DNA of 64,000 nt, taken from the NCBI RefSeq assembly GCF_029223585.1, contig NZ_CP119423.1, forward strand, positions 2,604,001-2,668,000, in the 5' to 3' direction. The position numbers and the translations under genes were made by a program. Below the pieces are notes generated by a model. The model made no database searches. It was given only the letters and a program-made list of their open reading frames with translations, and was not told the origin of the DNA. Origin of the DNA: Photobacterium sp. DA100. Lineage in GTDB: Bacteria; Pseudomonadota; Gammaproteobacteria; Enterobacterales; Vibrionaceae. Shown here piece by piece: positions 11,756 through 52,990 of this stretch (the stretch's first letter is position 1; each line of letters begins with the position of its first letter).

Positions 11756-11975
11756 ACATCCCCCTAATTCATGCTTGCCGGAGCAATCCACCTCGTTGCT
11801 GACTGCCCAGACCATAATTTTTCAAATTGGTGGTCCCACTCCGGGCTCACCTCCTTTTGATATAAGTGTCGTCTATTTCCTTGAAATTACTAAATTGAAA
11901 TGAGCAATTTTATCAATAGGCATGACCTATCTTGGCGCAAACCCGGTTACCCGCACAGGATTGAGGAAGATTTGA

Positions 11976-13863
11976 ATCGAGTAGGAGGAGGCCTCGCGGC
12001 CTCCGTCCTCTCACACCACCGTACAAGCGTGGGTCGCATACGGCGGTTCCGAATATATTTTCAGTGACTCGTACCCATCTCGCAATGAGTACATGCCCAT
12101 CTCCTTGAACCGTTTCGTTGGCATGGCCTGATTGAGCTGTGGCGATAAAGCCAAGTGCCACCATCCTTTCTCTGACATCGCTAGCTTCCACGCATTGCGT
12201 TCGCTTACGCCCTCTTGGCGTAACCATGACGCTATACTGTGTCTGCGTTTGCGCTGCTTGAGTCGATAGCACCGTAGGCGCCGCCTTATCCATTCATCTA
12301 AGCGCTGCATCGCGCTTTTCCGTATGGCAAGCTTGAAGTAGTGTTGCCATCCTCTTAGGTATTGAGTGAGTTCGACTATTACTGTCTTCAACTCTCGCCC
12401 TCGATTCCGCTTCGTTATTTGACGCACTCGCTTCTTCATATGAGTTTGTGCTCTCTTCGAGATATGGATAATTCCACCTCGTTGGAAGCGATGGCCTAGG
12501 TAAGTCCGCTCTGTCACTCTTGTTGCCGCACTTTTCTCACGGTTGACCGTGAGTTTCAGTTTCTGCTCCAAGAACTCCGTTATTGAGGCTTTTACTCGGT
12601 TCGCGGCTTCCTCACTGCCCACGTAGATTTGGCAGTCATCTGCATATCGGCAGAACTTATGCCCTCTTCGCTCAAGCTCTTTATCCAACTCATCTAATAC
12701 GATATTTGATAGCAGCGGAGATAATGGTCCACCCTGTGGTGTCCCTCGTTGCCTCTGCTCGGCTAACCCGTTTCGCATTATGCCTGCCTGTAGGTATGAC
12801 CTGACCAGCTTCAGTACCCGTTTGTCCGTGATATCCTCCGATAGCCTGTGCATCAGTCTATCGTGGTTCACGGTATCGAAGTATTTCGCTAGGTCAATGT
12901 CGACTACATAACCCCGCCCCTCCCTGATGTAGTGGCTTGCTGCCGCCAATGCATGGTGGGCACTACGGTTGGGCCTGAACCCGTAACTACTGTGGGAGAA
13001 CTTCGGTTCATAGATATCTGTCAGTACTGAGGTGATAGCCTGTTGGACTATCCTATCAAGTACTGTTGGGATACCTAGTTGCCTAACTCCCCCGCTAGGT
13101 TTAGGGATTTCTACACCCAGAACAGGTTGGGGTTGATAGCTCCCATCCAGAAGGCTCTGGCGGAGCGCTTGCCCATTTGAAGACTGCCGAAGCATCGAGA
13201 TAGTCGCTGTTATATCGAGTTTATCGACACCAGCACACCCTTTGTTCTTCTTCACTCTTCTCAGGGCTTGGTTCAGATTCGTTGATGAACAGATCTGCTC
13301 CATCAACTGAGTTGAGGTCACCAAGACTCGTCCTCCTGTCTACGCCGATCATGCTTGTCATTCTTCGTGGCCATGAGCGTCACTTGCGGTGTTGCCCATT
13401 GGTACGTAGAGATTTTGATCATCTTGCTATGACTCCACATGATTGAGTGTCTAGTGACTGCTTCTTGATATATTCAGTTCCGGCCTTCCCTTGGGTTGTA
13501 CTTCCCCAAGGTACTATGCCTTCTGCTGACTTCTTATTTCCCATCACACAGCATCACTGCTGCATTAGTCTCGCCCGAGACAGGTAATAAGATCTCCCGA
13601 GGTAAGACGTTGTTCTTTCCCTTGGCTGTGCCTGATTTACCCGTACACACTTCCCGTCGAGGCATTGGGCTATTCTATATGTTGCTAGGTTACCCAAGTT
13701 GTACTGGCCTACTATCAGATTTCTGTTCGTCACGGCCAAGTTTTGCCATTTGCTTCCTTCAGATCCCGCCTCACGGTGGGCACCCTTGCATAGGCTAACG
13801 GTTCTCGCTCGACTGAGCCCGTAGAGGACTTTCACCTCCTAGAACAACGCCATGCTCGGCGCA
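11976..13863 (-). mobile_element. group II intron, copy 1 (1888 bp)
   Basis: The element is bounded by the ends shared with two other copies. Its 3' end (low coordinates) reads CCTACTCGAT. Domain VI is visible at 11,979-12,012: GAG-AGGA, a GGAGGCC stem with GCGA loop, UCCU, a bulged A seven bases from the end (11,982), and CUC. Domain V fits 12,015-12,047, with CGC where most introns have AGC. The 540-base 5' part holds the other ribozyme domains, and the RT gene sits in domain IV. The 5' end reads TGCGCC, one G short of the GTGCGCC of the other copies. It abuts copy 2 directly. Confidence 0.9.
12011..13324 (-). CDS. ltrA: group II intron reverse transcriptase/maturase, copy 1
   Basis: A 437-residue RT/maturase that assists splicing and reverse transcription of its intron. 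Visible are RT blocks GIPTVLDRIVQQA, SSYGFRPNRSAHHA, the DIDLAKYFDTVNH block with catalytic Asp, RGTPQGGPLSPLLSN and the active-site YADD, then the maturase part with YLRGWQHYF. There is no HNH endonuclease domain, as in group IIC proteins. The start is TTG with GGAGGA six bases before it. The last twelve codons run through domain V of the ribozyme, and the TGA stop touches domain VI. Confidence 0.93.
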   Translation of the reverse strand: MVTSTQLMEQICSSTNLNQALRRVKKNKGCAGVDKLDITATISMLRQSSNGQALRQSLLDGSYQPQPVLGVEIPKPSGGVRQLGIPTVLDRIVQQAITSVLTDIYEPKFSHSSYGFRPNRSAHHALAAASHYIREGRGYVVDIDLAKYFDTVNHDRLMHRLSEDITDKRVLKLVRSYLQAGIMRNGLAEQRQRGTPQGGPLSPLLSNIVLDELDKELERRGHKFCRYADDCQIYVGSEEAANRVKASITEFLEQKLKLTVNREKSAATRVTERTYLGHRFQRGGIIHISKRAQTHMKKRVRQITKRNRGRELKTVIVELTQYLRGWQHYFKLAIRKSAMQRLDEWIRRRLRCYRLKQRKRRHSIASWLRQEGVSERNAWKLAMSEKGWWHLALSPQLNQAMPTKRFKEMGMYSLRDGYESLKIYSEPPYATHACTVV

Positions 13864-15752
13864 ATCGAGTAGGAGGAGGCCTCACGGCCTCCGTCCTCTC
13901 ACACCACCGTACAAGCGTGGGTCGCATACGGCGGTTCCGAATATATTTTCAGTGACTCGTACCCATCTCGCAATGAGTACATGCCCATCTCCTTGAACCG
14001 TTTCGTTGGCATGGCCTGATTGAGCTGCGGCGATAAAGCCAGATGCCACCATCCTTTCTCTGACATCGCTAGCTTCCACGCATTGCGCTCGTTTACGCCT
14101 TCTTGGCGTAACCATATCGCTATGCTGTGTCTGCGTTTTCGCTGCTTGAGTCGGTAGCACCGTAAGCGCCGTCTTATCCATTCATCCAAGCGCTGCATCG
14201 CGCTTTTCCGCATGGCGAGCTTGAAGTAGTGTTGCCAACCTCTTAGATATTGAGTTAGTTCGACTATTACTGTCTTCAACTCTCGTCCTCGATTCCGCTT
14301 CGTTATTTGACGCACTCGCTTCTTCATGTGAGTTTGTGCTGTCTTCGAGATATGGATACTTCCATCTCGTTGGAAGCGATGGCCTAAGTAAGTCCGCTCT
14401 GTCACTCTTGTTGCTGCACTCTTCTCCCGGTTGACCGTGAGTTTCAGTTTCTGCTCCAAGAACTCCGTTATCGAGGCTTTTACTCGATTTGCGGCTTCCT
14501 CACTGTGCACGTAGATTTGGCAGTCGTCTGCATATCGGCAGAACTTATGCCCTCTTCGTTCAAGCTCTTTATCCAACTCATCTAATACGATATTTGATAG
14601 CAGCGGAGATAATGGGCCACCCTGTGGTGTCCCTCGTTGCCTCTGCTCGACTAACCCGTTTCGCATTATGCCTGCCTGTAGGTATGACCTGATCAGCTTC
14701 AGTACCCGTTTATCTGTGATATCTTTCGATAACCTGTGCATCAGCCTATCGTGGTTCACAGTATCGAAGTATTTCGCTAGGTCAACATCGACTACATAAC
14801 CCCGCCCCTCCCTGATGTAGTGGCTTGCTGCCGCCAGAGCATGGTGGGCACTACGGTTGGGCCTGAACCCGTAACTGCTGTTGGAGAACTTAGGTTCGTA
14901 GATATCTGTCAGGACTGATGTGATGGCCTGCTGGACGATCCTATCAAGTACCGTTGGGATACCTAGCTGCCTCACTCCCCCACTAGGTTTAGGGATTTCT
15001 ACACCCAAGACGGGTTGGGGTTGATAGCTACCGTCCAGAAGGCTCTGGCGGAGCGCTTGCCCATTGGAAGACTGCCGAAGCACCGAGATAGTGGCTGCTA
15101 TGTCGAGTTTATCAACCCCAGCACATCCCTTGTTCTTCTTTACTCTTCTCAGGGCTTGGTTCAGATTCGTTGATGAACAGATCTGCTCCATCAACTGAGT
15201 GGAGGTCACCAAGACTCGTCCTCCTGTCTACGCCAAACATGCTTGTCATTCTTCGTGGCCATGAGCGTCACTTGCGGTGTTGCCCATTGGTACGTAGAGA
15301 TATTGTTCATCTTGCTATGACTCCACATGATTGAGTGTCTAATGACTGCTTCTTGATATATTCAGTTCCGGCCTTCCCTTGGGTTGTACTTCCCCAAGGT
15401 ACTATGCCTTCTGCTGACTTCTTATTAACCGTCACGCAGCATCACTGCTGCACTAGTCTCGTCCGAGACAGCTAATAAGATCTCCCGAGGTAAGACGTTG
15501 TTCTTTCCCTTGGTTGTGCCTGATTTACCCGTACACACTTCCCGTCGAGGCATTGGGCTATTCTATATATGGCTAGGTTACCCAAGTTGTACTGGCCTAC
15601 TATCAGATTTCTGTTCGTCACAACCAAGTTTTGCCGTTTGCTTCCTTCAGATCCCACCTCACGGTGGGCACCCTTGCATAGGCTAACGGTTCTCGCTCGA
15701 CTGAGCCCGTAGAGGACTTTCACCTCCTAGAACAACGCCATGCTCGGCGCAC
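13864..15752 (-). mobile_element. group II intron, copy 2 (1889 bp)
   Basis: Full-length element with GTGCGCC at the 5' end (15,752) and CCTACTCGAT at the 3' end (13,864). Domain V fits 13,903-13,935. The domain VI loop is GUGA instead of GCGA of copy 1; both are GNRA. Its 5' end lies 10 nt past the stem of the terminator at 15,757-15,787, in the same orientation as the gene it follows. Its 3' end joins copy 1 without a gap. Confidence 0.92.
13899..15212 (-). CDS. ltrA: group II intron reverse transcriptase/maturase, copy 2
   Basis: A 437-residue RT/maturase, nearly identical to copy 1. It has the same RT blocks and YADD active site and no endonuclease domain. Differences include NSSYGF for HSSYGF, VDVDLAKY for VDIDLAKY, VHSEEA for VGSEEA and ISKTAQ for ISKRAQ. 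The frame is intact from the TTG start to the TGA inside the 3' ribozyme part, so it may be active. Confidence 0.93.
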   Translation of the reverse strand: MVTSTQLMEQICSSTNLNQALRRVKKNKGCAGVDKLDIAATISVLRQSSNGQALRQSLLDGSYQPQPVLGVEIPKPSGGVRQLGIPTVLDRIVQQAITSVLTDIYEPKFSNSSYGFRPNRSAHHALAAASHYIREGRGYVVDVDLAKYFDTVNHDRLMHRLSKDITDKRVLKLIRSYLQAGIMRNGLVEQRQRGTPQGGPLSPLLSNIVLDELDKELERRGHKFCRYADDCQIYVHSEEAANRVKASITEFLEQKLKLTVNREKSAATRVTERTYLGHRFQRDGSIHISKTAQTHMKKRVRQITKRNRGRELKTVIVELTQYLRGWQHYFKLAMRKSAMQRLDEWIRRRLRCYRLKQRKRRHSIAIWLRQEGVNERNAWKLAMSEKGWWHLALSPQLNQAMPTKRFKEMGMYSLRDGYESLKIYSEPPYATHACTVV

Positions 15753-15756
15753 CAAC

Positions 15757-15787
15757 AAAAAAACCGCCGTTGGTAACGGCGGTTTTT
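15757..15787 (-). terminator. terminator of the DUF945 gene; intron target
   Basis: Minus strand ACCGCCGT-TACCA-ACGGCGGT followed by T7 and GTT. The intron pair begins directly after this T-tract. Confidence 0.92.
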
Positions 15788-15811
15788 CGTACTAGCACAC
15801 GCAACTGCAGG

Positions 15812-17125
15812 TTACATGAAAAGCATAAACAGCATCGCAAAGGGCAGCTGGTCACCGTTAGATAAGATAACCTTGTCACCTTCAATCTGCATATCTAGCA
15901 GGTAGTGGGTAGCATTGCGCTCGACAATCGCACTCTGCTCCAGCATATCGATCCGCTCACTAAGCAGCGGATCCGCTTCGACCAGCTCCACCGGCAAGCT
16001 AAGGTGAAGATCCCCCCCTAGCTTCTCCGCAATCTGGCCAATATTCTGGGAAATATTGCTGATCCCAGGAGCGACGGTCATGTTCAGGCGGCTGGTCACC
16101 TGCCCTTCCGGAGCAAGTACACTCAAATCGTTAATAGAGAATGCAAGGCCCTTGGCTACCAGCGCATCCAGTGCCGCAGAGACTTCCATCGCCTGTTGTT
16201 CGGTGAGTGGCTCGTCCAAGTCATCGGTCATATCCCCCAAACGGCTCAATGAGGGATAATCCAGTTCAGAGAAGGCCATTTGGAAGTTGAAGTTACGGTA
16301 TTCGCTGCCGTCTAGCATCACAACTTTGCCAACCTTGATATGGTTGGAATTCGATAGCTGCAGCTCAGGCTTCTCCTGCCCTTCTGCTACTTCAGGCTGG
16401 ATAAGCACATTTTCCATCCCGACCGCCAGCTCGGCCACATCCAGGCTCTGCTCGGAGTTCAAATCGACAAACCGCACCTCATCCAACGTCAGCGCTTGGT
16501 CACCGATCCAGAACTGCCCGTCCAGATAACCCTTACCACCGCCTTTCAGCCCTTTTAGCACCATCTCTTCGCGGGCTGCCGTTGTGAGGTTGGCGGATGG
16601 AAGCTGATAGTGAAACTCGCCTGCCCCCTTAGCATTCACCGTCCCCTGCATGACAAACGAAGCTACGGCAACACTGGTGCCATTGACTTCTTTTTCGCTA
16701 ATTGGATTGATCTGGAAAGTAAAATCAGTCTTGCGTGTCAACGCAGTGTTAGTGGTAAAGGTAACAGGAGAGACCCCTTCTCCCCACAGTGCAGCTGTCA
16801 TTGGCTTGAGCGCATCGTCCACCACCAGCTCGCTAGTCGAGGAGACTCCCATAAAGCCATGGCTGACATGGTGCTTCACAAACCAAACGGTCGGTAAGCC
16901 TTCATCTTCAAACAGAAATTTCAGCTCATCCTTTAGCTCGATTTTTGATACCGCCTCAGACGTCAGGTATCCGCGCTGATAGGTATCATTGGACACAGCA
17001 AGATACGGATTTTCATACTGCCCAAACGTATCAAGATAAATACGCTCGCCAATTTGCCCCGTGGCAAACGGCCAACACAGTGCCACAGCCACTGCACCAC
17101 CAACGGCACCAACTTTTCCTAGCAT
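15812..17125 (-). CDS. DUF945 (YdgA-like) family protein
   Basis: A 437-residue protein with an N-terminal hydrophobic segment (about residues 5-20, likely a membrane anchor) and a large periplasmic part rich in beta structure. It matches the DUF945 family, whose E. coli members include YdgA and YihF; the role is unknown. Conserved features are the GQIGERIYLDTFGQYENPYL start and repeated LDG/FNFQM segments. It is a single gene with its own terminator, divergent from the kinase at 17,441. Confidence 0.8.
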   Translation of the reverse strand: MLGKVGAVGGAVAVALCWPFATGQIGERIYLDTFGQYENPYLAVSNDTYQRGYLTSEAVSKIELKDELKFLFEDEGLPTVWFVKHHVSHGFMGVSSTSELVVDDALKPMTAALWGEGVSPVTFTTNTALTRKTDFTFQINPISEKEVNGTSVAVASFVMQGTVNAKGAGEFHYQLPSANLTTAAREEMVLKGLKGGGKGYLDGQFWIGDQALTLDEVRFVDLNSEQSLDVAELAVGMENVLIQPEVAEGQEKPELQLSNSNHIKVGKVVMLDGSEYRNFNFQMAFSELDYPSLSRLGDMTDDLDEPLTEQQAMEVSAALDALVAKGLAFSINDLSVLAPEGQVTSRLNMTVAPGISNISQNIGQIAEKLGGDLHLSLPVELVEADPLLSERIDMLEQSAIVERNATHYLLDMQIEGDKVILSNGDQLPFAMLFMLFM

Positions 17126-51069: not shown

Positions 51070-52958
51070 ATCGAGTAGGAGGAGGCCTCGCGGCCTCCGT
51101 CCTCTCACACCACCGTACAAGCGTGGGTCGCATACGGCGGTTCCGAATATATTTTCAGTGACTCATACCCATCTATCAATGAGTACATGCCCATCTCCTT
51201 GAACCGTTTCGTTGGCATAGCCTGATTGAGCTGCGGCGATAAAGCCAGATGCCACCATCCTTTCTCTGACATCGCTAGCTTCCAAGCATTGCGCTCGTTT
51301 ACGCCTTCTTGGCGTAACCATGTCGCTATGCTGTGTCTGCGTTTTCGCTGCTTGAGTCGGTAGCACCGTAAGCGCCGTCTTATCCATTCATCCAAGCGCT
51401 GCATCGCGCTTTTCCGCATGGCGAGCTTGAAGTAGTGTTGCCAACCTCTTAGATATTGAGTTAGTTCGACTATTACTGTCTTCAACTCTCGTCCTCGATT
51501 CCGCTTCGTTATTTGACGCACTCGCTTCTTCATGTGAGTTTGTGCTGTCTTCGAGATATGGATACTTCCATCTCGTTGGAAGCGATGGCCTAAGTAAGTC
51601 CGCTCTGTCACTCTTGTTGCCGCACTCTTCTCCCGGTTGACCGTGAGTTTCAGTTTCTGCTCCAAGAACTCCGTTATCGAGGCTTTTACTCGATTTGCGG
51701 CTTCCTCACTGTGTACGTAGATTTGGCAGTCGTCTGCATATCGGCAGAACTTATGCCCTCTTCGTTCAAGCTCTTTATCCAACTCATCTAATACGATATT
51801 TGATAGCAGCGGAGATAGTGGGCCACCCTGTGGTGTCCCTCGTTGCCTCTGCTCGACTAACCCGTTTCGCATTATGCCTGCCTGTAGGTATGACCTGATC
51901 AGCTTCAGTACCCGTTTATCTGTGATATCTTTCGATAGCCTGTGCATCAGCCTATCGTGGTTCACGGTATCGAAGTATTTCGCTAGGTCAACATCGACTA
52001 CATAACCCCGCCCCTCCCTGATGTAGTGGCTTGCTGCCGCCAGAGCATGGTGGGCACTACGGTTGGGCCTGAACCCGTAACTACTGTGGGAGAACTTCGG
52101 TTCATAGATATCTGTCAGTACTGAGGTGATAGCCTGTTGGACTATCCTATCAAGTACTGTTGGGATACCTAGTTGCCTAACTCCCCCGCTAGGTTTAGGG
52201 ATTTCTACACCCAGAACAGGTTGGGGTTGATAGCTCCCATCCAGAAGGCTCTGGCGGAGCGCTTGCCCATTTGAAGACTGCCGAAGCATCGAGATAGTCG
52301 CTGTTATATCGAGTTTATCGACACCAGCACACCCTTTGTTCTTCTTCACTCTTCTCAGGGCTTGGTTCAGATTCGTTGATGAACAGATCTGCTCCATCAA
52401 CTGAGTTGAGGTCACCAAGACTCGTCCTCCTGTCTACGCCGATCATGCTTGTCATTCTTCGTGGCCATGAGCGTCACTTGCGGTGTTGCCCATTGGTACG
52501 TAGAGATTTTGATCATCTTGCTATGACTCCACATGATTGAGTGTCTAGTGACTGCTTCTTGATATATTCAGTTCCGGCCTTCCCTTGGGTTGTACTTCCC
52601 CAAGGTACTATGCCTTCTGCTGACTTCTTATTTCCCATCACACAGCATCACTGCTGCATTAGTCTCGCCCGAGACAGGTAATAAGATCTCCCGAGGTAAG
52701 ACGTTGTTCTTTCCCTTGGCTGTGCCTGATTTACCCGTACACACTTCCCGTCGAGGCATTGGGCTATTCTATATGTTGCTAGGTTACCCAAGTTGTACTG
52801 GCCTACTATCAGATTTCTGTTCGTCACGGCCAAGTTTTGCCATTTGCTTCCTTCAGATCCCGCCTCACGGTGGGCACCCTTGCATAGGCTAACGGTTCTC
52901 GCTCGACTGAGCCCGTAGAGGACTTTCACCTCCTAGAACAACGCCATGCTCGGCGCAC
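51070..52958 (-). mobile_element. group II intron, copy 3 (1889 bp), mosaic
   Basis: Same ends as the other copies (GTGCGCC at 52,958, CCTACTCGAT at 51,070). Domain V fits 51,109-51,141, and the GCGA loop of domain VI matches copy 1. It begins nine nt past the stem of the terminator at 52,962-52,990. Its 5' part matches copy 1 and most of its 3' part matches copy 2, with the switch inside a 38-bp shared stretch at 52,045-52,082. Confidence 0.92.
51105..52418 (-). CDS. ltrA: group II intron reverse transcriptase/maturase, copy 3
   Basis: A 437-residue RT/maturase with an intact frame, YADD site and no endonuclease domain. The N-terminal part has ITATISML and HSSYGF as in copy 1; from VDVDLAKY on it follows copy 2 (SKDITDK, VHSEEA, ISKTAQ). 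A few residues near the C-terminus are unique (LIDGYESL for LRDGYESL). Confidence 0.93.
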   Translation of the reverse strand: MVTSTQLMEQICSSTNLNQALRRVKKNKGCAGVDKLDITATISMLRQSSNGQALRQSLLDGSYQPQPVLGVEIPKPSGGVRQLGIPTVLDRIVQQAITSVLTDIYEPKFSHSSYGFRPNRSAHHALAAASHYIREGRGYVVDVDLAKYFDTVNHDRLMHRLSKDITDKRVLKLIRSYLQAGIMRNGLVEQRQRGTPQGGPLSPLLSNIVLDELDKELERRGHKFCRYADDCQIYVHSEEAANRVKASITEFLEQKLKLTVNREKSAATRVTERTYLGHRFQRDGSIHISKTAQTHMKKRVRQITKRNRGRELKTVIVELTQYLRGWQHYFKLAMRKSAMQRLDEWIRRRLRCYRLKQRKRRHSIATWLRQEGVNERNAWKLAMSEKGWWHLALSPQLNQAMPTKRFKEMGMYSLIDGYESLKIYSEPPYATHACTVV

Positions 52959-52961
52959 AAC

Positions 52962-52990
52962 AAAAAAGCCAGCAACCGAAGTTGCTGGCC
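52962..52990 (-). terminator. terminator of the Dcu gene; intron target
   Basis: Minus strand GCCAGCAAC-TTCG-GTTGCTGGC and T6, then GTT; the intron starts right after it. Confidence 0.92.

Follow-up and report, generated by a model that had tools for sequence, protein, structure and literature searches.

Two of the three group II introns in a 64,000-nt stretch of DNA from Photobacterium sp. DA100 (the whole stretch analyzed, hereafter the window) appear, as judged from their sequence, to form a nested twintron, i.e., one complete intron (copy 2) lies inside another (copy 1), which is whole once the inner one is removed. Overall, we consider it very probable that these are class C introns, that copy 1 inserted at T7GTT^T and copy 3 at T6GTT^T (^ denotes the insertion point), and that copy 2 became nested in copy 1 by way of its EBS1 sequence, CAUA. 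The preliminary description of this DNA had taken copies 2 and 3 as insertions at two near-identical sites, which proved to be a misreading; the site of copy 2 reads GTTG^T and is made up of the exon of copy 1 and of the first two bases of that intron.

The window contains three full-length group IIC introns of 1889 nt, all on the - strand. Copy 2, the inner intron (class A, EBS1 CAUA), occupies positions 13864..15752 and runs from GTGCGCCGAGC to CTCCTACTCGAT. Copy 1, the outer intron (class B, EBS1 AACA), extends from U2 to its 3' end at 11976..13863, with the T at 11975 as exon base +1; its G1 is at 15753..15753, cut off from the remainder by copy 2. Copy 3 is a single intron at a class B site (51070..52958). 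Each copy encodes an IEP of 437 aa on the same strand (12011..13324 in copy 1 and 51105..52418 in copy 3, both intact; 13899..15212 in copy 2, with RVT_1, GIIM and the YADD motif). The genome of the window (G000; two contigs, 6.0 Mb) carries 17 full-length copies, each of which is 1889 nt long (copy 1 being counted with its split-off G), starts with GTGCGCCGAGC, ends with CTCCTACTCGAT and is followed by T; all 17 IEP frames are intact with YADD present. Intron lengths in the relative G025 range from 1888 to 1895 nt.

Assignment of the window introns to group IIC (bacterial class C) is supported by the nearest solved relative of their IEP, i.e., the GsI-IIC RT (6ar1, E 1.6e-119). The second-closest PDB chain is 7uim_D, a "group II intron reverse transcriptase/maturase" from what we take to be a IIC intron. 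Only the RVT_1 (RT) and GIIM (maturase) domains of Pfam scored above cut-off in the IEP (DUF5329, the third, fell below its own), and no endonuclease domain was found by Pfam; NCBIfam group_II_RT_mat was above cut-off in the IEPs of all three window copies. The elements of a group II ribozyme (5' GUGYG, D1-D4, D5/D6 and 3' AY) were found as well, with Rfam families D1D4-3 and D1D4-1 (RF02001, RF01998) matching all three window copies and RF00029 falling just below its gathering score of 40 in copy 2 (match ending at 13864, 39.7 bits) and copy 1 (11976-12048, 38.5 bits); the ends of these two matches coincide with the intron boundaries used here. Copy 3 gave no RF00029 match at the Rfam gathering score. 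Together with the location of the copies behind hairpins, the RT and maturase domains, the D1D4 matches and the proximity to the GsI-IIC RT bear out the class C membership proposed in the preliminary description. An RNAI match (15755-15862; 25.4 bits, the gathering score being 47) was taken as chance.

The nesting becomes apparent at the terminator of the DUF945 gene (15754..15787, - strand), which is the class B target of copy 1 and consists of a stem (15764-15782) with its A-tract (15783-15787), T7 (15757-15763) and GTT (15754-15756). The 5' flank of copy 2 reads TTTTTTTGTTG followed by GTGCG, i.e., copy 2 starts 11 nt past the stem with one additional G; its 3' end (CTCGAT) abuts TGCGCC, which is copy 1 minus its first G. 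At the orthologous empty site of G025 (locus L172, with 91% identity to the window locus in gene and terminator and 1372/1373 query bases aligned), which reads CGGCGG TTTTTTTGTT^TCAAATC, the flanks are joined without the G; CGGCGGTTTTTTTGTT^TCAAATC lacks this base. As the G is missing there, the base that precedes copy 2 is the G1 belonging to copy 1, which copy 2 thus separates from U2. The site is also empty in G065, G007 and G068, where the tails are too diverged to judge the G, so that this test is one of a single genome, G025. With the split-off G restored, copy 1 measures 1889 nt, as do the other 16 copies in G000, and is identical over its full length to six of the seven other non-mosaic class B copies of this genome, the seventh (L017) being one base off. 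Alignment of empty sites in relatives, which the preliminary description had proposed, thus placed copy 2 one nt beyond GTT and inside copy 1. The sequence GTTG^T is also used in ordinary DNA by CATA copies of G025 (L097 at TTTTTGTTG^T and L139 at TTTTTTTGTTG^T).

One could instead suppose a plain tandem, in which the second copy re-inserted at the same GTT^ site and the junction bases were subsequently gained or lost by mutation. Neighboring insertions behind one terminator do exist, as three introns are found in such an arrangement in G523, a genome of another genus in the same family. However, this account needs both the gain of a G before copy 2 and the loss of a G from copy 1, while nesting covers both with one G, and it is disfavored by the G025 empty site. 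Moreover, exact insertion at GTT^ before copy 1 would give T at exon position -1 and G at +1, both against the rule for this intron, yet +1 is T in 64/65 of the copies examined in three genomes. We therefore regard a plain tandem as very improbable.

A similarly small probability is given to homologous recombination between intron copies, or an assembly artefact, rather than a new insertion. Recombination among these introns has evidently occurred, as L008 and L009 are mosaic between the classes and L130 and L134 have their upstream flank in common but not their downstream flank. A crossover would, however, predict neither the offset of 1 nt at both ends, nor an outer flank collinear with the G025 empty site, nor a complete inner class A copy with its own fitting target; an artefact is hard to reconcile with a two-contig assembly that keeps copies of 95% identity separate. 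Nesting of copy 2 within copy 1 is thus the reading that we follow below.

The sites in G000 fall into two classes, i.e., eight copies at ..TG^T (class A, L001-L008) and nine at (T/C)GTT^T (class B, L009-L017), with approx. 5% divergence in intron sequence between the classes. Bases 182-185 of the intron, which the Rfam D1D4-3 structure places in a hairpin loop, read CATA in seven and AACA in 10 of the G000 copies (L008 included among the latter). In the window, this EBS1 stretch is CATA in copy 2 (15568..15571) and AACA in copy 1 (13680..13683) and copy 3 (52774..52777), all on the - strand. Among the 19 copies of G025, 18 carry CATA and one AACA, and all 29 copies of G004 carry AATA. Exon base -1 varied with these alleles across the 65 copies, being G in 23/25 CATA copies, T in 10/11 AACA copies and T in 29/29 AATA copies, such that it formed a Watson-Crick pair with base 182 of the intron in 62/65. 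Exon base -3 was G in 10/11 AACA copies, in which base 184 is C, as compared to 10/54 others (P = 9e-6), and base -2 was T in 65/65. A short EBS1-IBS1 pairing was thus detected through covariation at 182/-1 and 184/-3. Overall, 188 of 260 possible EBS1-exon pairs were observed against a mean of 150 (sd 4.8) when EBS1 was shuffled among the 65 sites, and 0/20,000 shuffles reached 188; this comparison takes the sites to be independent, and EBS1 class is confounded in it with host, AATA coming from G004 alone. Sites of AAUA introns fit AACA almost equally well (mean 2.69 vs. 2.76 pairs).

Pairing of EBS1 with the target had also been predicted in the preliminary description; it holds for copies 1 and 3, in which AACA pairs with TGTT at 4/4 positions, and only in part for copy 2, in which CAUA pairs with GTTG at 2/4. 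Instead of the single clear target consensus assumed there, the data indicate several consensuses, each defined by EBS1. In other species, bases 182 and -1 were complementary in 12/12 readable loci, including U-A pairs in Psychromonas arctica and Vibrio mytili; these 12, seven of which are from one V. metschnikovii strain, are those that gave both loop and exon among 15 loci (L018-L032) read out of 79 (no reading was obtained from L018 and L020, and L029 yielded only two exon bases; L022 has a second start beside an N). One of these loci, L032 of Vibrio sp. CAU 1672, is class A-like (CATA, exon TATG), and its IEP is 97% identical to that of the window and nearer to it than are the Photobacterium copies among the matches listed, which suggests a recent transfer between genera.

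The EBS1 rule was broken by three of the 65 copies, i.e., L008 (AACA at TATG) and L130 and L134 of G025 (CAUA at CGTA). L009 (copy 3) is a mosaic that matches class B exactly up to position 900 and is nearer to class A from there on. L008 has the same make-up apart from class A sequence in positions 1-170; it now has a class B EBS1 at a class A site and may splice poorly. L130 and L134 share a 48-nt upstream flank approx. 160 nt downstream of tRNA-Trp genes, with differing sequence downstream, a pattern that points to either recombination or duplication between tRNA loci.

Site class could also be set by another region linked to EBS1, such as positions 97-131, or by the IEP. In G000, columns 97, 117, 130 and 131 split the site classes without exception, whereas base 182 has one exception, L008. 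On the other hand, the complementarity between 182 and -1 is seen with three different bases and across three genera, the Rfam structure places the EBS1 stretch in the D1D4-3 hairpin loop, and the IEP gene of copy 3 is class A-like at positions 901-1854 (of 541-1854) and yet its site is class B. A linked determinant thus seems unlikely. EBS1 pairing would be the cause of site choice, in an account for which intron boundaries, nesting, EBS1-exon covariation, hairpins and strand bias are the evidence as read from the DNA.

When the 45 nt upstream of each intron were folded, z was below -2 relative to base shuffles (100 per copy) in 65/65 copies from three genomes (17 from G000, 19 from G025 and 29 from G004), with a median of -5.2. 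Folding replaced an earlier hairpin detector that scored L008 and L141 poorly and returned nothing for L016 and L160. The copies are located behind 63 distinct hairpins, as L001 and L016 have one in common and those of L130 and L134 are identical. L168 of G004 is the sole copy of the 65 with G rather than T at exon position +1. The proposal that terminator targeting marks these introns as group IIC is supported by these results, and the introns are indeed right behind intact terminator hairpins and oriented with the preceding gene; the host genes appear spared as well, the window copies being situated between neighboring genes. Copy 3 follows the terminator of the anaerobic C4-dicarboxylate transporter gene (52959..52990, - strand; stem 52968-52990, T6 and GTT), and its 5' junction, GGCTTTTTTGTT followed by GTGCG, is 9 nt beyond the stem. 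The preliminary description, which placed both copies 2 and 3 9-10 nt past the stem, behind T6-T7-GTT and before T, was accurate in these respects for copy 3; copy 2 starts at 11 nt and has an extra G, and the T6-7-GTT^T target is instead common to copies 1 and 3. At the orthologous position of copy 3, G025, G068 and G007 have a terminator without an intron, with diverged tails in which GTT is not conserved. Terminator targeting by class C introns is already known and not new. Group IIC introns were reportedly described behind intrinsic terminators by Robart et al. in 2007.

Insertion was also strongly biased with respect to replication. Using replication arms placed by the GC skew of sampled stretches (seven of 5 kb for contig C1 of G025), we found 61/62 unambiguous copies (three ambiguous ones being dropped) to be co-directional with the replication fork, as compared to 387/681 terminator-like background sites (P = 3e-13; Fisher's test); the background represents approx. 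2.0 Mb of sampled sequence, with one 20-kb stretch of near-zero skew omitted. The introns thus show the bias towards the lagging-strand template that has already been described for class C introns (PMC8919778). The sole fork-opposed copy of the 62, L011 (G000:C2:1092409), is 0.1-0.2 Mb from the switch in skew and may mark a later inversion.

These observations are consistent with the following course of events. Copies 1 and 3, both with EBS1 AACA, would have entered by reverse splicing, copy 1 at the T7GTT^T that follows the DUF945 terminator and copy 3 at T6GTT^T. Following what is known of group IIC biology, the RNP would reverse-splice into the single-stranded lagging-strand template at a hairpin at the fork, with EBS1 reading the final bases of the exon and EBS3 the T at +1, and the RT would copy the intron from the nascent strand. 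The sister lineage, with EBS1 CAUA, would require TG^T, and the exon-intron junction of copy 1, GTT/GU, would offer GTTG^T one base past the class B site of the same hairpin, where copy 2 would have entered. The change in the EBS1 loop thus apparently makes the start of a sister intron resemble a landing site. Copy 2 would have to splice first, which would rebuild the 5' end of copy 1 (GUUGUGCGCC), and only then could copy 1 splice. The dN/dS between the IEPs of the two lineages is approx. 0.07, which points to maintenance of both through repeated mobility.

By scaling up from 800 kb of sampled sequence, we estimated that G000 has approx. 258 class A and 115 class B co-directional sites; these estimates are rough, as the terminator detection behind them, which includes a T-run rule, recovers 55/65 copies. 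As each of the nine class B copies adds one site, the probability that at least one of eight class A insertions would be nested is approx. 0.24. One nested case is within chance, and no preference for nesting is therefore claimed; the single case is what opportunism would be expected to yield. Target saturation as a driver was likewise dropped, given approx. 258 and 115 sites for eight copies at class A and nine at class B sites, respectively.

Exact-pattern searches of 52 genomes of the genus, 329 of the family and 394 of the order (overlapping sets) gave no further nested junction; such searches overlook diverged introns, and short-read assemblies collapse repeats. The pattern CTACTCGATN{0,12}TGCGCC matched 2/52 genus genomes, i.e., G000 and G016, the latter without intron sequence on either side. 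The pattern ACTCGATN{0,3}TGCGCCGAGC matched 2/394 order genomes (G000 and G323, the latter without an intron) and 2/329 family genomes (G000 and G523). In G523 (C2, approx. 1577800-1583470; L340-L343), three introns of the same lineage (EBS1 AATA) follow one terminator; this resembles the window locus in having several introns behind one terminator, and differs from it in that these are separated by one-T spacers and not nested. Slipped re-insertion in the T run or duplication of a unit could account for this triple. In addition, copies of approx. 640 nt with both intron ends and no ORF match were observed in G017 (C1 766973-767612, L102, preceded by ..TTTTTTGTT; also at 610532, L117, and at 257289); these were perhaps mobilized in trans.

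It is tempting, though rather doubtful on present data, to generalize that, once base 182 is C instead of A, the near-invariant GU at the start of a sister intron would serve as a homing site one nt further on wherever that intron follows ..TT/ behind a terminator, with one lineage preying on the other. The site rules imply that A should not re-enter A and that B should not enter A, and the relation would therefore be one-way. If true, every new class B insertion would open a class A site at the same hairpin, and twintrons could arise without a new host target; a small change in EBS1 that makes an intron the target of its sister would thus be a simple route to twintrons. Natural EBS1 alleles and 65 sites from three genomes also constitute a data set on how little IIC introns read past the hairpin, i.e., essentially -1 and -2, sometimes -3, and +1. 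With this set of alleles, retargeting of class C introns becomes directly testable.

Terminator targeting and strand bias are already known, as are EBS divergence and twintrons (PMC8919778, PMC2882425, PMC4424553, PMC3522654, PMC4649490). A literature search that had most subscription journals outside its reach turned up no IIC intron described as nested at the G1/U2 junction of its sister via a change in EBS1. The class C introns described behind terminators (PMC8919778, PMC3522654) are like those reported here in having a class C IEP, a target composed of a hairpin and short pairings with EBS1 and, putatively for the introns reported here, EBS3, and a lagging-strand bias; here, by comparison, two EBS1 lineages occur in one genome, with one inside the 5' splice site of the other. 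Nested prokaryotic group II introns are likewise represented by those of Trichodesmium, whose twintron interrupts a protein gene and for which sequential splicing is reported (PMC4649490), and of Methanosarcina (PMC4424553), although use of a terminator and of an outer 5' splice site is not described in the accessible parts of these two accounts. A further parallel is provided by the IIB introns of Thermosynechococcus elongatus (PMC2882425), in which EBS divergence produced families with different targets and insertion of family into family produced twintrons. In T. elongatus, however, the inner introns are ORF-less and are located between the first two ATGs of the domain IV ORF of the outer intron, whereas in the window a IIC intron with a complete IEP is located between G1 and U2 of its sister, behind a terminator.
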